Source: Beijerinckiaceae bacterium
GTDB lineage: Bacteria > Pseudomonadota > Alphaproteobacteria > Rhizobiales > Beijerinckiaceae
DNA: 11,190 nucleotides
Direction: 5' to 3'
Assembly (NCBI GenBank): GCA_947458675.1
Contig: CANHAW010000030.1
Span: 1-11,190, forward strand
A program made the position numbers and the translations under genes. The notes beneath the pieces were generated by a model that saw only the letters and a list, made by a program, of their open reading frames with translations, searched no databases and was not told the origin of the DNA. Below, in pieces: positions 2,903 to 8,155 of the stretch; positions within the stretch are counted from its first letter, which is position 1; each line of letters begins with the position of its first letter.

Positions 2903-2914
2903 TCTAAATTGACG
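2897..2914. promoter_or_regulatory. PpsR/CrtJ-type operator upstream of bchF
   Basis: The sequence TGTCAATCTAAATTGACG fits the PpsR/CrtJ consensus TGT-N12-ACA except for the last base. It has the expected inner palindrome TGTCAA-N6-TTGACG. It overlaps the -35 element of the bchF promoter and lies between bchF and the divergent aerR-ppsR genes, so one site could control both directions. A second weaker match, CGT-N12-ACA at 2913-2930, abuts it and shares two bases. PpsR is known to bind paired sites cooperatively. Confidence 0.65.
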
Positions 2915-2978
2915 TCTATGCAAACTTACACATGGGTGTTAGAAGGGCGCATTGCAGAGCCTCGGGAGGGGACCCGTC

Positions 2979-3095
2979 ATGATTCAGCCTGCCTCAGGCG
3001 GAGCAGGAGCCCAGGCCATGGGCGACAGGCTCACTCGCTATGGGCGAGAAGGTCGGGCCCGCTCCCTGTCATGCGGAGATGGAGGGGCCCACTGA
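2979..3095 (+). other. 38-codon ORF with good Shine-Dalgarno in front of aerR (leader ORF or displaced aerR N-terminus)
   Basis: An ATG at 2979 lies 9 nt after GGAGG (2965-2969, within GGGAGGGG), the best ribosome-binding site in the region upstream of aerR. The frame gives 38 residues, including GDRLTRYGREGRARSL, and stops at TGA 3093-3095. It is not in the aerR frame. I do not recognise the peptide. It may be a leader ORF, or the true start of aerR separated from the rest by frameshifts. From about 3094 to 3180 the most coding-like frame is yet another one (it includes LKFRGFWVETALLEVEILLA), and from 3173 the aerR frame takes over. Translation has not been demonstrated. Confidence 0.3.
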
Positions 3096-3172
3096 CGGAC
3101 CTCAGCTCAAATTCCGGGGATTTTGGGTCGAAACCGCCCTTCTCGAGGTCGAAATCCTTCTTGCCTCGCGGA

Positions 3173-3928
3173 ATGGAAGCTGAAATCCAGCCATGGCCTG
3201 CGCTTGGCAATGACGAATCTGCCAAAAGCGCGCCCGGCTTCATCGAGGCGCGAATCGCCGAAAGCGACATCGTTCAGTTTTGCGAAATCATGAATGCAGG
3301 CGACCAAAGCCGCATGGCGCAGGCGATCGCCACCCTGCGGGCGCGCGGCATCGGGAACGATTCTCTCCTGCTCGATTTCCTGCCCCGAGTGGCCGAAGAA
3401 CTCGGACGCCAATGGACGAGCGACGAGAGCGACTTCACCGCAGTCACCATTTCGATGGGCTATTTACAGAAAATACGACGTGAAATCAGCTGTTTAAATG
3501 GCTCAGTCTTGATGCGGGCCGGACCGCCCAAGCGCGCCCTTCTCGCCCCCACCCCTGGCGAACAGCATAATTTCGGCCTGATGATCGTGGATCAATTCCT
3601 TCATCAGGCGGGCTGGCAAGTCACCACTCTTCCCCATACCAATGCGGAAGATTTGGCGAGTCAGCTATCCCGAGAACCCTTTGAAATCGCTGGACTCTCT
3701 ATCAGCTGCGAGGCATATCTCCTAAAATTGGAGAAACTGGTCGCGACGATCCGCAGAACTTCTCGAAACAGAAACATCGGCATTCTTGTCGGCGGACGTC
3801 TGTTTTTGGAGAAACCTGATCTCGCTGTCCTGATTGGTGCAGATGCAACTGCACATGATGGACGCGATGCCGTGTTAAAGGCGGAAAAATTAGCGGCTGG
3901 AAACCCGTGTCTACTTTTGACGGATTAA
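3173..3928 (+). CDS. aerR: AerR/PpaA-type B12-binding antirepressor of PpsR
   Basis: AerR/PpaA proteins bind cobalamin and modulate the PpsR/CrtJ repressor, coupling photosystem expression to light and oxygen. From this ATG the product has 251 residues, close to known AerR proteins. The N-terminal helical domain includes EELGRQWTSDESDFTAVTIS and GYLQKIRREI, a typical LG..W..D...F..VT pattern. The B12-type domain follows, with PTPGEQHNFGLMIVDQFLH, where His132 matches the AerR cobalamin-ligand histidine in a GEQH context. ISCEAYLLKLEKLVATIRRT and GILVGGRLFLEKPDLAVLIG complete the fold. The start is uncertain: the frame is open upstream to 2909 (TTG 2909, ATG 2918, ATG 3071), none with a convincing Shine-Dalgarno. 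I chose 3173 because RGMEAEIQP resembles the conserved RTIEAEIIP-like helix of the family. AerR of R. capsulatus is known to exist in long and short forms. The ppsR start follows after 4 nt. Confidence 0.85.
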   Translation: MEAEIQPWPALGNDESAKSAPGFIEARIAESDIVQFCEIMNAGDQSRMAQAIATLRARGIGNDSLLLDFLPRVAEELGRQWTSDESDFTAVTISMGYLQKIRREISCLNGSVLMRAGPPKRALLAPTPGEQHNFGLMIVDQFLHQAGWQVTTLPHTNAEDLASQLSREPFEIAGLSISCEAYLLKLEKLVATIRRTSRNRNIGILVGGRLFLEKPDLAVLIGADATAHDGRDAVLKAEKLAAGNPCLLLTD

Positions 3929-3932
3929 CGCT

Positions 3933-5411
3933 TTGCCAAATTTCGGCCCAGCACTCAACCTCCTCAATGGCAATGGCCGCACAGGATCTCAATTGACCCA
4001 ATTCTCCGAACCTGAAAAATCGATCGGGTCGGTCTCCGCGCAAATTGCGGCGCGTCTGCTTGCAGTGGCTGCAGACATTACACTTGTCATCGATGCACAA
4101 GGCGTGATCTGCGATCTCTCCATCAATTCCGACCTGCCAAAACCCGATCAATGGATCGGCTGCAAATGGCTCGACACAGTCACCGTCGAGAGCCGCATCA
4201 AGGTCGAGGAATTGCTGAAAGAGGCCAAAAGCGGCGGTTTCTCGCGCCCGCGGCAGATCAATCACAGATTGCCGGGCGGAGTGAATCTGCCGGTGCGCTA
4301 TTCCTCGGTAGAGATAGGCAAAGGCGGCCGCATTGTCGCCCTTGGTCAGGAGCTGCGTTCGCTCGCGCAAATGCAACAACGCCTCGTCGAGGCACAACGC
4401 ACAACCGAGCAGGAATTCCTGCGCCTGCGCAGCGCCGAAACACGCTTCCGCATTCTCTTCCAGATGGCCAGCGAAGCTGTCCTGATTGCCGATGCCAATA
4501 CGCTCAAGACAATCGATGCCAATCCCGCTGCCGCTGCACTGCTTGAGACAACTTCAGGCAAACTTGTGGCGCGTCCGCTGGTAGAAATATTCGATGGCGA
4601 GACGCGCACCGCCATCGAGCCCCAGATCAGCGCCATTCGCTCTATCGGCCGCATCGAGGCCTTGAGCGTACGCCTCGCCAACCGTCGCGAATGCTGGCTT
4701 TCAGCGGCCCTCATTCGCCAGGATGATTCGGCCCAATTGATCGTGCGCCTCTCGCCCTTCGCAGAGGCGACCGGCACCGGCTTGCCCCTGTCCAAGCTGC
4801 ACATGCTGCGGGCCATGGATTCCATGCCGGATGCCATTTTGCTGGTCGATCAAAATCGCTGCATCCTCGATGCCAATCAGGCCTTTCTCGAAATGGCCCA
4901 GATCGCATCCCTGTCGCAGGCAAAGGGTCAATCGATCGATCGCTGGCTCGGTCGCTCGGGCGTCGATCTGAACGTGCTTTTCGCCAATCTGCGCGAGCAT
5001 GGCACGATGAGAAACTTCGCGACCGTCCTGCGCTCGGATTTCAGCTACATAGAAGATGTCGAAATATCGGGCGTTTGCATGCCGGGCAACGATAGCCCCA
5101 CACATGCACTCTTGGTGCGCACCATGGTGCGCCAGTCGCGCGGGGCGCAGATTGCGACCTCAGACAACACCCGCCATGCAGAGCAATTATCCGAACTCGT
5201 CGGGCGTGTGCCGCTGAAAGACCTGATCCGCGAGACGACTGAAATTACAGAAAAACTCTGCATCGAGGCCGCCCTGAAGCTGACCGGCGACAATCGCGCC
5301 GCCGCCGCGCAAATGCTCGGTCTCAGCCGCCAGAGCCTCTATGGAAAGCTCCGGCGCTATGGCATCGGCGACCTTGACGGCGAAACCGAGGGATCGGACG
5401 ATTTTGCCTAA
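3933..5411 (+). CDS. ppsR: PpsR/CrtJ transcriptional repressor of photosynthesis genes
   Basis: PpsR/CrtJ represses bch, crt and puc genes under oxygen or light by binding TGT-N12-ACA. The 492-residue product has the family layout: an N-terminal PAS-like domain (about 35-135, with LDTVTVESRIKVEELL), a glutamine-rich helical linker (about 136-165), PAS1 (about 166-280), PAS2 (about 290-405), and a Fis-type helix-turn-helix (about 425-480) with TGDNRAAAAQMLGLSRQSLY. Cys443, in KLCIEAALKLTG, is the conserved HTH cysteine implicated in redox sensing. Cys254 lies near the position of the second redox cysteine, though this alignment is from memory. The start appears to be TTG at 3933, 4 nt after the aerR stop, with only a weak GACGGA upstream; TTG 3993 is the next in-frame option. 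Coupling to aerR matches the functional partnership. Two candidate binding sites lie in this window. Confidence 0.94.
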   Translation: MPNFGPALNLLNGNGRTGSQLTQFSEPEKSIGSVSAQIAARLLAVAADITLVIDAQGVICDLSINSDLPKPDQWIGCKWLDTVTVESRIKVEELLKEAKSGGFSRPRQINHRLPGGVNLPVRYSSVEIGKGGRIVALGQELRSLAQMQQRLVEAQRTTEQEFLRLRSAETRFRILFQMASEAVLIADANTLKTIDANPAAAALLETTSGKLVARPLVEIFDGETRTAIEPQISAIRSIGRIEALSVRLANRRECWLSAALIRQDDSAQLIVRLSPFAEATGTGLPLSKLHMLRAMDSMPDAILLVDQNRCILDANQAFLEMAQIASLSQAKGQSIDRWLGRSGVDLNVLFANLREHGTMRNFATVLRSDFSYIEDVEISGVCMPGNDSPTHALLVRTMVRQSRGAQIATSDNTRHAEQLSELVGRVPLKDLIRETTEITEKLCIEAALKLTGDNRAAAAQMLGLSRQSLYGKLRRYGIGDLDGETEGSDDFA

Positions 5412-5412
5412 A

Positions 5413-5436
5413 AGTTGACATTTAAGACTGTCAACT
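5413..5436. repeat. Perfect 8-bp inverted repeat downstream of ppsR
   Basis: AGTTGACA (5413-5420) and TGTCAACT (5429-5436) are perfect reverse complements separated by 8 nt. The repeat begins 2 nt after the ppsR stop. There is no following T-run, so it is a poor intrinsic terminator. Its arms are PpsR-type half-sites in outward orientation, and the right arm is shared with the TGT-N12-ACA operator at 5429-5446. It may be an auxiliary PpsR contact region or a weak ppsR 3' hairpin. Confidence 0.55.
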
Positions 5437-5446
5437 GAAGTAGACA
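5429..5446. promoter_or_regulatory. PpsR/CrtJ operator upstream of the bch2-bchP operon
   Basis: TGTCAACTGAAGTAGACA is an exact match to TGT-N12-ACA, with the left half-site TGTCAA ideal and the right half TAGACA near-ideal. It lies just downstream of ppsR and upstream of bch2-bchP, and its right arm doubles as a candidate -35 element. This suggests direct repression of the downstream operon by the repressor encoded immediately before it. Confidence 0.75.
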
Positions 5447-5475: not shown

Positions 5476-5625
5476 ATGATTGCTCCAGTGTCCGCAACAG
5501 CTATCGCATTGCTCGAACCAATCACCCGGTTTGAGGCGATGTCGGCTGTCCAGTGCGGCCTTTGCGTTCTCGGCACGCTTCCCGCCGCCATCGCCTCGCG
5601 CAATCTCCCCGGAGTGACGCCATGA
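5476..5625 (+). pseudogene. bchG: Internally deleted bchG (bacteriochlorophyll synthase) remnant, 49 codons
   Basis: bchG normally occupies this place between ppsR and bch2 and encodes a membrane prenyltransferase of about 300 residues that esterifies bacteriochlorophyllide a. Only a 49-codon ORF remains, ATG 5476 to TGA 5625. Residues 12-28 (LLEPITRFEAMSAVQCG) resemble the conserved BchG N-terminus LLKPITWFPPMWAFxCG; most differences are explained by one or two base changes per codon (TGG to CGG, TGG to TCG). Residues 29-44 (LCVLGTLPAAIASRNL) resemble the BchG C-terminus LYVLGMLVSAFALRPL. The entire core, including the Asp-rich substrate-binding motifs, is absent. The stop still overlaps bch2 as ATGA. 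The reading frame crosses the junction, so the product could be a one-helix peptide. The comparison is from memory of the family. Chance similarity, or a rearranged or misassembled locus, is the alternative. It cannot encode a working synthase. Confidence 0.6.
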
Positions 5626-6962
5626 CCGCAGCGCAGCAATCGCACACGCTCACCTGGTTCGAAATCGTCCGCATCGGCCTCGTGCAAACATCCATTGGCG
5701 CCATTGTCGTGATCGCAACCTCGACGCTCAACCGCGTCATGGTGATTGAGATCGGCCTGCCGGCGCTCGTGCCCGGCCTGCTGATGACTTTGCATTATGC
5801 CGTGCAGGTCTTGCGCCCGCGCTGGGGTCACGGATCCGATGGGGGGCGGCGGCGCACGCCTTGGATCATCGGCGGCATGGCAGCTCTGGCGCTGGGTGGC
5901 GCACTTGCAGCTGTGGGCACCGCCATGATGCAGGATGAATTGCGCGCCGGCCTTGCAGTTGCAACGCTTGCCTTTCTGCTGATCGGCATGGGTGTCGGTG
6001 CAGCCGGAACAAATTTGCTCACGCTGCTTGCCGAACGTGCGCCACCGGCGCGCCGTGCACCTGCTGCAACCATCGTTTGGACGATGATGATCGCCGGCTT
6101 CGCCATAACCGCCATCAGCGCCGGCAAGGCGCTCGATCCATTTTCGGGCGAACGTCTTGTGCTGGTCTCGAGCATTGTTTCGCTGATCGCCTTCACCGTC
6201 AGCACAATCGCCATTCTCGGCGTCGAGGCGCGCACGACTGCCATCGTCAAAGAACAGAAAGATCAGACACCGTTTCGTTTGGCGCTGCGTGAAGTCTGGT
6301 CGGAACCGCGCACGCGCCGTTTCACGCTGTTCGTTTTCGTTTCCATGTTCGCCTATAATGCGCAGGATCTCATCCTCGAGCCCTTTGCCGGTCTTGTCTT
6401 CAACATGACACCCGGTGAATCGACGCAATTGGGCGGCAAGCAACATGCCGGCGTTCTTGTCGGCATGATCTTGGTGGCGATTGCAGGCTATCTGGCGGGT
6501 CGCCGTGAAACCGCTCTCCTGCAGGCCTGTATGGTCAGCGGTTGCATTGCTTCGGGCATTGCAATGGCTGCCGTCGCAATGGGCGGAATCATGGGCCCGC
6601 AATGGCCCATCAGCACGGCAGTCTTTTTGCTCGGACTGGCCAATGGAATTTTTTCAATCGCAGCAATCGGCATGATGATGGCGATGGCGCGATCGGGACA
6701 TCAATCCCGCGAGGGCGTGCGCATGGGACTATGGGGCGCATCGCAAGCACTTGCCTTTGCGCTCGGCGGCTTCATCGGAACGCTTGCCGTCGATATTGCG
6801 CGACAGTTTTTCGGTTCGCCTGCACATGCCTACACAAGCGTGTTTTTCGGTGAGGCTCTTCTCTTCATTGTCTCCGCCGCAATCGCAGTGGCAGTAGCGC
6901 GCGACCGAACAAAATCCACCGCAGAAGAAAGCTTCCCCGCCGATATGGAGCATGCGCGATGA
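5622..6962 (+). CDS. bch2: Bch2/PucC-family transporter-like membrane protein
   Basis: This is a major-facilitator-fold protein of the PucC/LhaA/Bch2 (BCD transporter) family, members of which assist pigment delivery or light-harvesting complex assembly in the inner membrane. The 446-residue product is rich in hydrophobic segments, consistent with about twelve membrane helices. The start TWFEIVRIGLVQTSIGAIVV and the loop RPRWGHGSDGGRRRTPW (65-81) are family-typical. Later helices include FLLGLANGIFSIAAIGMMMA and GLWGASQALAFALGGFIGTL. I chose ATG 5622 because GGAG lies 7 nt upstream, the protein then begins as its relatives do, and it forms an ATGA overlap with the bchG remnant. The frame remains open up to 5553, but that extension is arginine-rich and unlike the family. 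The gene ends in an ATGA overlap with bchP. The exact substrate is unproven. Confidence 0.93.
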   Translation: MTAAQQSHTLTWFEIVRIGLVQTSIGAIVVIATSTLNRVMVIEIGLPALVPGLLMTLHYAVQVLRPRWGHGSDGGRRRTPWIIGGMAALALGGALAAVGTAMMQDELRAGLAVATLAFLLIGMGVGAAGTNLLTLLAERAPPARRAPAATIVWTMMIAGFAITAISAGKALDPFSGERLVLVSSIVSLIAFTVSTIAILGVEARTTAIVKEQKDQTPFRLALREVWSEPRTRRFTLFVFVSMFAYNAQDLILEPFAGLVFNMTPGESTQLGGKQHAGVLVGMILVAIAGYLAGRRETALLQACMVSGCIASGIAMAAVAMGGIMGPQWPISTAVFLLGLANGIFSIAAIGMMMAMARSGHQSREGVRMGLWGASQALAFALGGFIGTLAVDIARQFFGSPAHAYTSVFFGEALLFIVSAAIAVAVARDRTKSTAEESFPADMEHAR

Positions 6963-8155
6963 GCAATGATATTTTCGATGTAATCGTCGTCGGTGGCGGA
7001 CCTGCGGGCGCAACAGCCGCGCATGATCTGGCGCGCGCCGGGCGCAAGGTCATGCTGCTTGATCGTGCCGGCAGGATCAAACCCTGCGGCGGCGCCATTC
7101 CCCCGCGGCTCATCCGCGATTTCGACATTCCCGATCATCTTCTGAAAGCGAAGATCCGCTCAGCCCGCATGGTGGCGCCTTCGGGAACATCCGTGGACAT
7201 GCCCATCGATACCGGCGGCTTCGTTGGCATGGTCGATCGCGATGAATTCGATGAATGGCTGCGCGAGCGCGCCGCAACAGCCGGCGCAAAACGCGTCACC
7301 GGCACTTTCGATCATTTCGATCGCGATGCAAACGGCCATTGCCTCATCACATGGCGCGACAAGTTCGGAAAAGAAGAGAGTGCGCAGGCGCGTCTTGTCA
7401 TCGGCGCAGACGGGGCCAATTCGGCAGTCGCACGCGCCGCCCTGCCCCCCTCGGGCCGCGCGCCTTTCGTTTTCGCCTATCATGAGATTGTCCGCACACC
7501 GCAGCAATCTGAGGCGATCGCACCCAATCGATGCGATGTCTATTATCAAGGAAAAATCTCGCCCGATTTTTACGGCTGGGTTTTTCCCCATGGCGATACG
7601 ATCAGCATCGGCACAGGCTCTGCCCACAAGGGTTTTTCGCTGCGCAATGCCGTCGCAGAATTGCGCAAGGATGTCGGCCTTGAAGATGCACCGACATGCC
7701 GGCGCGAAGGTGCGCCGCTGCCGCTCTATCCCGCCAAGAAATGGGATAATGGCCGCGATGTTCTCGTCACCGGGGATGCCGCCGGTGTCGTTGCTCCCGC
7801 ATCAGGCGAAGGCATTTATTACGCCATGCTGAGCGGACGATTGGCCGGCGAGGCCTGTATGGAGACTTTGCGCACAGGCGATGGACGTGCCCTGGCCGGC
7901 GCGCGCAAAAAATTCATGCGCGATCACGGGCGCATCTTCTTGGTTCTCTGGGTCATGCAGACCTTCTGGTATCGCAGCGATCGCTTCCGTGAGCGCTTCG
8001 TCAAAATCTGCCGCGATCCGGATGTCCAGCGCCTGACTTGGGAATCCTATATGAACAAGGCATTGGTCAAGACCGATGTGATGGCCCATATTCGCGTCTT
8101 CTTCAAAGATCTCGGCCATATTCTGGGGCTCGTGCGCTCGCCGCACGGATCCTGA
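6959..8155 (+). CDS. bchP: Geranylgeranyl reductase, BchP
   Basis: BchP reduces the geranylgeranyl tail of bacteriochlorophyll (or geranylgeranyl diphosphate) in steps to phytyl, using NADPH. The 398-residue product is an FAD-dependent reductase of normal family length. Its N-terminal dinucleotide-binding motif is VIVVGGGPAGATAAHDLARA (8-27). Then comes the family-typical RIKPCGGAIPPRLIRDFDI, a second FAD segment around VTGDAAGVVAPASGEGIYYA (270-289), and a C-terminal part with YMNKALVKTDVMAHIRVFFK. Its ATG overlaps the bch2 stop as ATGA, so it should be translated with bch2 from the PpsR-controlled transcript. It normally acts on the product of BchG, which is reduced to a remnant in this operon; the esterifying enzyme must therefore come from elsewhere if the pathway works. 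A bidirectional terminator lies downstream. Confidence 0.96.
   Translation: MSNDIFDVIVVGGGPAGATAAHDLARAGRKVMLLDRAGRIKPCGGAIPPRLIRDFDIPDHLLKAKIRSARMVAPSGTSVDMPIDTGGFVGMVDRDEFDEWLRERAATAGAKRVTGTFDHFDRDANGHCLITWRDKFGKEESAQARLVIGADGANSAVARAALPPSGRAPFVFAYHEIVRTPQQSEAIAPNRCDVYYQGKISPDFYGWVFPHGDTISIGTGSAHKGFSLRNAVAELRKDVGLEDAPTCRREGAPLPLYPAKKWDNGRDVLVTGDAAGVVAPASGEGIYYAMLSGRLAGEACMETLRTGDGRALAGARKKFMRDHGRIFLVLWVMQTFWYRSDRFRERFVKICRDPDVQRLTWESYMNKALVKTDVMAHIRVFFKDLGHILGLVRSPHGS

Follow-up and report, generated by a model that had tools for sequence, protein, structure and literature searches.

What happened to bchG in a photosynthesis operon in which its place holds only a 49-codon open reading frame (ORF)? 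Photosynthesis gene clusters are regarded as conserved blocks that move largely intact. The window analysed here is a whole stretch of 11,190 nt and corresponds to contig C30 of the draft genome G000, which is 77% complete and has 2.18 Mb in 343 contigs. It is a part of a purple-bacterial photosynthesis gene cluster, in the order bchN and bchF on the reverse strand, an aerR-like gene, ppsR, the 49-codon ORF, bch2 and bchP on the forward strand, and pufC, pufM and pufL on the reverse strand (Table 1). The names of the aerR/ppaA-like gene and of bch2 (PucC/LhaA-like) are our assumptions, based on position; in NCBIfam, bch2 gave a single weak match, which looks unrelated. As given in PMC6739100, the usual place of bchG is after ppaA and ppsR. 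We call the place between ppsR and bch2 the slot, and a bchG outside this place elsewhere-type; G numbers denote genomes and L numbers denote loci. G004, whose bch2 is the most similar among the relatives, was used as the reference. The initial annotation had assumed that the slot is conserved, and this was confirmed: bchG lies directly between ppsR and bch2 in nine genomes of the genus. Loss of phototrophy was considered and rejected, because pufL, pufM, pufC, bchF and bchN match Pfam families over nearly their whole length. It is also contradicted by purifying selection on bch2, bchP and ppsR (dN/dS about 0.12-0.15 versus G004).

Table 1 Features around the 49-codon ORF, in positions of the window
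Feature	Position	Strand	Basis
aerR/ppaA-like gene (presumed)	2909..3928	+	38-52% identity to the same-place gene in relatives of this gene order
ppsR	3933..5411	+	TIGR02040, 410.7 bits (cut-off 275.4)
TGAC-N10-GTCA palindrome, PpsR-like operator candidate	5416..5433	+	read directly
TGT-N12-ACA, PpsR/CrtJ-like operator candidate	5429..5446	+	only match in the window
49-codon ORF, ATG start	5476..5625	+	between ppsR and bch2
bchG scar, 5' part (codons 1-28, fused at Gly28)	5476..5559	+	match to the first 28 residues of G004 BchG
bchG scar, 3' part (last 21 codons and TGA)	5560..5625	+	match to the last 21 residues of G004 BchG
GGAG, likely bch2 ribosome-binding site inside the bchG 3' end	5611..5614	+	seven bases before the bch2 start
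bch2 (presumed; PucC/LhaA-like)	5622..6962	+	446 aa; 77% to G004; dN/dS 0.153 versus G004
bchP	6959..8155	+	TIGR02023, 503.7 bits; dN/dS 0.146

The ORF between ppsR and bch2

The initial annotation had proposed that the ORF is a remnant of bchG, formed by an internal deletion which removed roughly 250 codons and joined both termini of the protein at about Gly28/Leu29. When residues 1-28 of the ORF were aligned with the first 28 residues of G004 BchG, 15 of 28 residues were identical and the BLOSUM62 score was 70. None of 20,000 shuffles reached this score (mean 13.4, maximum 43). Residues 29-49 share 13 of 21 residues with the last 21 residues of G004 BchG (score 54), and again no shuffle among 20,000 reached the score (mean 15.0, maximum 51). 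These results bear out the proposal: each half aligns with a BchG terminus better than expected by chance, and both ends of the intact gene have their homologues at the conserved place. The alignment also places the fusion point at Gly28/Leu29, between bases 5559 and 5560. The deletion is confirmed; measured on nine intact relatives, it comprises 245 codons. The ATGA overlap with bch2 is kept, as claimed: the bch2 ATG (5622-5624) and the TGA of the ORF (5623-5625) were read directly at 5622-5625. Substitution of otherwise invariant motif residues had also been pointed out. This is correct in general, but not for Pro-Pro, because this clade has Ala-Pro (WFAPMWAF) where the ORF now has RFEAMSAV.

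Thus, the ORF resembles BchG, the (bacterio)chlorophyll synthase (TIGR01476/UbiA, PF01040), in its first 28 and last 21 residues and in its place between ppsR and bch2. In contrast to BchG, it lacks the whole catalytic middle and any profile match. The aspartate-rich region NDxxDRxxD, a motif described in PMC9066304, falls inside the missing 245 codons. Recognition of the 49-residue peptide by a UbiA-family HMM, which had been envisaged, failed: the ORF matched no family in NCBIfam and Pfam, and a full-length match to TIGR01476 was not obtained. It was also absent from genome searches with the TIGR01476 profile and with a profile of BchG alignment A3 (E up to 10). The ORF is invisible to profiles and, therefore, its homology appears only half by half, against close relatives.

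Across the codon columns that are the same in six intact copies, 15 nonsynonymous changes and one synonymous change are unique to the window; this agreement filter favours nonsynonymous sites, and the 15:1 ratio is not a dN/dS value. Each of the six intact copies has no unique nonsynonymous change. By simple counting, pN and pS between the window and G004 were 0.208 and 0.443, respectively, and pN was 0.00-0.13 among the pairs of intact copies computed. G007 was excluded from these codon counts, because its N-terminal part is cut too short. Constraint on the residues of the BchG ends has been lost. In simulated drift (20 to 40 substitutions in 114 bases, substitutions only), the frame remained open in 0.59 to 0.43 of the cases. 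Because drift leaves the frame open about half the time, the open frame is weak evidence of selection. Judging from its sequence, the ORF is best read as a decaying scar of bchG.

Short ORFs are often left uncalled in protein collections. Our protein search found one cluster, P0001, with 49 residues and one difference (A24V), which has three members at 90% identity; A24V is the single variant known for the ORF. The members lie on three contigs, the longest of which has 7260 bases and hence is not the window. P0001 bears no source, and its contigs may come from the same waters as the window. No other homologue was found among 5.8 billion proteins (E up to 10) in this search, which needs shared 5-residue words. 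The recurrence as a cluster would be expected if the ORF encoded a functional membrane micropeptide derived from bchG, and the ORF has one moderately hydrophobic stretch (residues 21-40). The hydrophobic helix predicted earlier at about residues 22-40 indeed lies in the most hydrophobic place (19-residue peaks at 21-39 and 22-40). However, the mean Kyte-Doolittle value is only 1.63, versus 2.36 for the best 19-residue stretch in the first 133 residues of G004 BchG. Furthermore, the 15 unique nonsynonymous changes lie in the very columns that define the BchG ends, the sole known variant differs by an amino acid, and further homologues were not found in the search described above. Therefore, we regard a functional micropeptide as very improbable, and the earlier idea of a conserved one is not supported by the codon comparison with the six intact copies.

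G000 is a metagenome-assembled draft in many contigs, and the ORF might accordingly be suspected as an assembly artefact. However, a misjoin is not expected to yield decayed ends, the 49-residue variant was found on other contigs (P0001), and G037, which is assembled in about 10 contigs, has a scar of its own. An artefact is hardly credible.

A probable second bchG in G000 and its counterpart in G037

UbiA and TIGR01476 searches of G000 found only three other prenyltransferases, which we take to be CtaB, UbiA and a third one. When profile A3, which was built from both BchG types, was used, a match was obtained at the first bases of contig C277. This match covers the final 32 codons of a BchG gene that is truncated at the contig edge; the remainder of the gene is extrapolated, since only these codons are assembled in the 77%-complete draft. 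The fragment is identical to the G037 copy at 27 of 32 residues and to the G004 slot copy at 16 of 32 residues, and the foreign lineage of the G000 copy is judged from the identity of these 32 residues only. The dN/dS value versus G037 was 0.10, on only 32 codons. An alpha/beta-hydrolase gene, which is 81% identical to the gene after bchG in G037, follows the bchG end on C277, and the same arrangement is present in G048. C277 (3.6 kb, GC 0.567) could be mis-binned, though its composition fits the rest of the bin: its tetranucleotide distance to the window is 0.18, versus 0.16-0.25 for five other stretches. Among proteins P0001-P0121, which cover the best 120 of 7993 BchG hits, none has a C-terminus identical to that of C277, and the best one shares 30 of 32 residues. 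The initial annotation was right that the esterification gene has gone from the operon. Its search for a full bchG in the genome is answered in part, by the end of a foreign-type gene on C277 but not by a full gene. The esterification step is probably kept, via this foreign-type bchG.

G037 also has ppsR and bch2 without bchG between them. Its scar consists of only about the last nine codons (ANRDLPGVRP, a match reached by none of 300 shuffles), which include the ribosome-binding site of bch2. Another contig of G037 carries a full bchG of a different type, which presumably replaces the slot copy. A tree that unites this bchG with those in the slots of G038, G042 and G004 was rejected (p-AU 9e-71); thus, by the tree and the AU test, the replacing copy in G037 is not of the native lineage. 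The slot-gene tree groups G037 and G038 as sisters (100/100, 92% identical). Because the sister G038 as well as G042 and G004 keep the native slot bchG, the operon copies in G037 and in the window were lost independently.

We consider it highly probable that xenologous displacement has left the ORF as a decaying scar of the operon bchG, and that the same displacement took place independently in G037. The incoming bchG, from another lineage and linked to the alpha/beta-hydrolase gene, would have been acquired at a second locus and would have supplied bacteriochlorophyll synthase. The operon copy, by then presumably redundant, lost 245 internal codons in frame, as the comparison with intact relatives shows, probably in a single event. 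Both scar ends have since drifted without constraint as BchG, as the codon counts show. Probably the ends escaped deletion since bch2 and bchP still depend on them, for a PpsR-type promoter and leader on one side and for the bch2 ribosome-binding site and the ATGA overlap on the other; this is suggested by their conservation. In G037, the displacement would have proceeded separately.

The presence of the same bchG-hydrolase pair in G000, G037 and G048 might also be explained if the two bchG types had coexisted in an ancestor and each descendant had retained only one of them. However, this differential loss needs the pair to have been lost in G004, G038 and G042 and the slot copy to have been lost in the window and G037. 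Moreover, the dS value between G000 and G037 is 0.79 for the hydrolase gene, far below that for bch2 (1.87), although both values come from a simple method and are near saturation. The lower dS of the hydrolase gene therefore fits transfer after the split of G000 and G037. In addition, the genes downstream of the hydrolase gene differ among G000, G037 and G048. Differential loss is thus an unlikely explanation, and transfer, as far as such sequence comparisons reach, fits better than an old coexistence of both bchG types.

Inside the genus, 10 of 12 elsewhere-type genomes, among them G037, G048 and G000 (classed by its bchG fragment), have the hydrolase gene at E 1e-40, compared with none of nine slot-type genomes, some of which are incomplete drafts (G042, 63%; G031, 76%; G038, 83%). 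Outside the genus, it was detected at E 1e-20 in two of five elsewhere-type genomes versus 11 of 19 slot-type genomes. On these out-of-genus counts, we dropped the idea that the hydrolase is an obligate or functional partner of elsewhere-type BchG; more likely, it travelled along as a passenger. A protein of 507-509 aa that begins with an alpha/beta-hydrolase domain at its N-terminus (L081 2730-4256; L214 96-1619), which is unnamed in NCBIfam and Pfam, shares a contig with bch2 in several relatives. In G037, a 43-base terminator-like hairpin is directly repeated on both sides of the bchG-hydrolase pair (L081 2658-2700 and 5903-5945). Its 27-base core recurs after the hydrolase gene on C277 and at another place in G037 (L195); the exact core was found in six of 225 loci, which are overlapping pieces of G037 and C277. 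We do not claim a mobile element around the pair, because the repeat is terminator-like, was not detected beside the G048 pair and has its core at a further place in G037. A stretch beside the pair, presumably ABC-transporter-like, shows 94% DNA identity between G037 (L081 1506-2672) and G048 (L186 14834-16001), and the pair itself is only 79% identical between them.

Two genomes, G048 (L186 7735-8700) and G023 (L187 6427-7347), have an intact elsewhere-type bchG. No match to bch2, PF00124 (reaction centre) or bchN was found in G048 (95% complete) or G023 (100% complete, 9% contaminated). The dN/dS value of the G048 bchG versus the G037 copy was 0.068. Either the cluster was lost or not binned in these genomes, or their bchG has another use. 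In the G021 draft, the slot is emptied and no BchG was found over the cut-off; in G030, a part of bch2 is present and no BchG was found over the cut-off.

Distribution of elsewhere-type bchG

The survey was extended to 80 named bch2 loci, six of which double genomes of the genus (L097, G038; L098, G004; L099, G047; L100, G007; L135, G035; L166, G029). bchG lies directly upstream of bch2 in 69 loci, three (L150, L160 and L167) have too little upstream sequence to judge, and eight are without bchG. Seven of these eight loci have ppsR before bch2, and the eighth, L155, has another gene order. All seven, including the genus members G035 and G029, have exactly one BchG over the TIGR01476 cut-off, located elsewhere. 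For example, Bosea sp. AAP35, Methylobacterium sp. Leaf99 and J-090 and an Anderseniella MAG have, like G000, ppsR directly before bch2 and one BchG elsewhere, of the same clade. Unlike the window, they have no detectable trace of bchG in the slot. In Bosea, only about 7.5 kb of one contig separate the elsewhere-type bchG from bch2. In G035, the elsewhere-type bchG has as neighbours a second ppsR-like gene (30% to ppsR) and a phytochrome (PHY) domain gene, and in G029 and G020, ppsR-like genes and relatives of this phytochrome gene are near it, hinting at phytochrome control in these three genomes (L197 1501-6575, L089 and L091).

Sixteen outside-slot BchGs form one clade without any slot copy inside, with SH-aLRT 95 in a 92-row tree and 99/99 in a careful tree of 37 of these rows. 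The 92 rows represent 91 genes, because two of them are different reads of the same gene (L108). Sequences that were identical had been merged, and hits shorter than 240 residues were omitted. The BchG of L155, titled Polyangiaceae, falls outside the clade in the 92-row tree and is not included in the careful tree. For G016, G034, G039 and G043, "outside" means that bchG and bch2 are on different contigs or about 24 kb apart, and G048 and G023 are counted as outside the slot though they have no bch2 match. We also searched 12 bchG-less gaps, with 300 shuffles each. C-terminal motifs beat all shuffles only in the window and G037, and the N-terminal motif only in the window. In the other 10 gaps, no bchG sequence was detectable, yet ppsR-bch2 persists. 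The operon copy thus seems to have been displaced more than once by a single foreign bchG lineage.

Regulatory ends of the scar and known replacements

Upstream of the ORF, two palindromes overlap (Table 1); their PpsR-like or CrtJ-like identity is assumed from the motif form. The TGAC-N10-GTCA form was found in five of eight upstream regions compared (window, G004, G038, G042 and G037) and the exact TGT-N12-ACA form in four of eight (window, G004, G032 and G028). TGT-N12-ACA alone was dropped as a signal, because one match in the window compares with 0.98 expected by chance. At the other end of the scar, GGAGTGA is also present in G037, G038 and G042, and not in G004 (GGAACC), G032, G031, G040 and G028. 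The parts that seem to have been kept are the promoter block at one end and, at the other, the ribosome-binding site of bch2 together with the ATGA overlap. In contrast, neither TGT-N12-ACA nor TGAC-N10-GTCA was found in about 500 bases searched at the elsewhere-type bchG of G037, G048 and Bosea. Because PpsR-type sites are missing there, the control of these genes must differ.

The ATGA overlap raises the question of whether the whole ORF has been preserved so that its translation delivers efficient translation of bch2, as was suggested in the initial annotation. No stop interrupts the frame between its ATG and its TGA, and P0001 is likewise 49 codons long and differs in a single residue. However, the G037 scar has lost the bchG start codon, and there is no start in the frame which ends with ...RDLPGVRP. 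Moreover, bch2 has its own GGAG site, ppsR-bch2 persists in the 10 gaps without detectable bchG, and simulated drift by itself would often leave a frame without stops. Therefore, preservation of the whole ORF for translational coupling is doubtful and, in our judgement, improbable. A decaying scar, in which only the regulatory ends are kept, remains our preferred reading.

Among the matches listed in searches of titles and abstract openings (bchG with ppsR, pseudogene or gene transfer), a description of a bchG scar or of a single replacing lineage was not found. PMC6052148 reports single-gene replacements within photosynthesis gene clusters, in 34 of 1452 genes in Rhodobacteraceae, and calls bchG of S. 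guttiformis a prime example. As in the cases described there, a foreign bchG is here predicted to replace the native one in function. Unlike in those cases, the newcomer occupies a different locus, a scar of the native gene can still be seen, and the event recurs in separate lineages. Thus, xenologous displacement is a known kind of event, and the present case is a well-supported example.

More tentatively, one BchG lineage might be a roaming replacement, which settles outside the slot, repeatedly drives loss of the native gene and frees esterification from the redox and light control of the PpsR operon. Native loss could be driven in this way because, with the roaming BchG present, pigment synthesis no longer needs the PpsR-controlled operon for esterification. 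We regard this extension as possible but rather doubtful.

The locus is a case in which an essential pathway gene has very probably been swapped out of a tightly packed operon. The two independent scars suggest the route: the coding middle is lost, and the promoter block and the ribosome-binding site of the next gene stay. A seemingly missing essential gene in a draft genome can thus be a moved one. Most of the outside-slot bchG genes found here are of one lineage, and why that lineage wins becomes testable.
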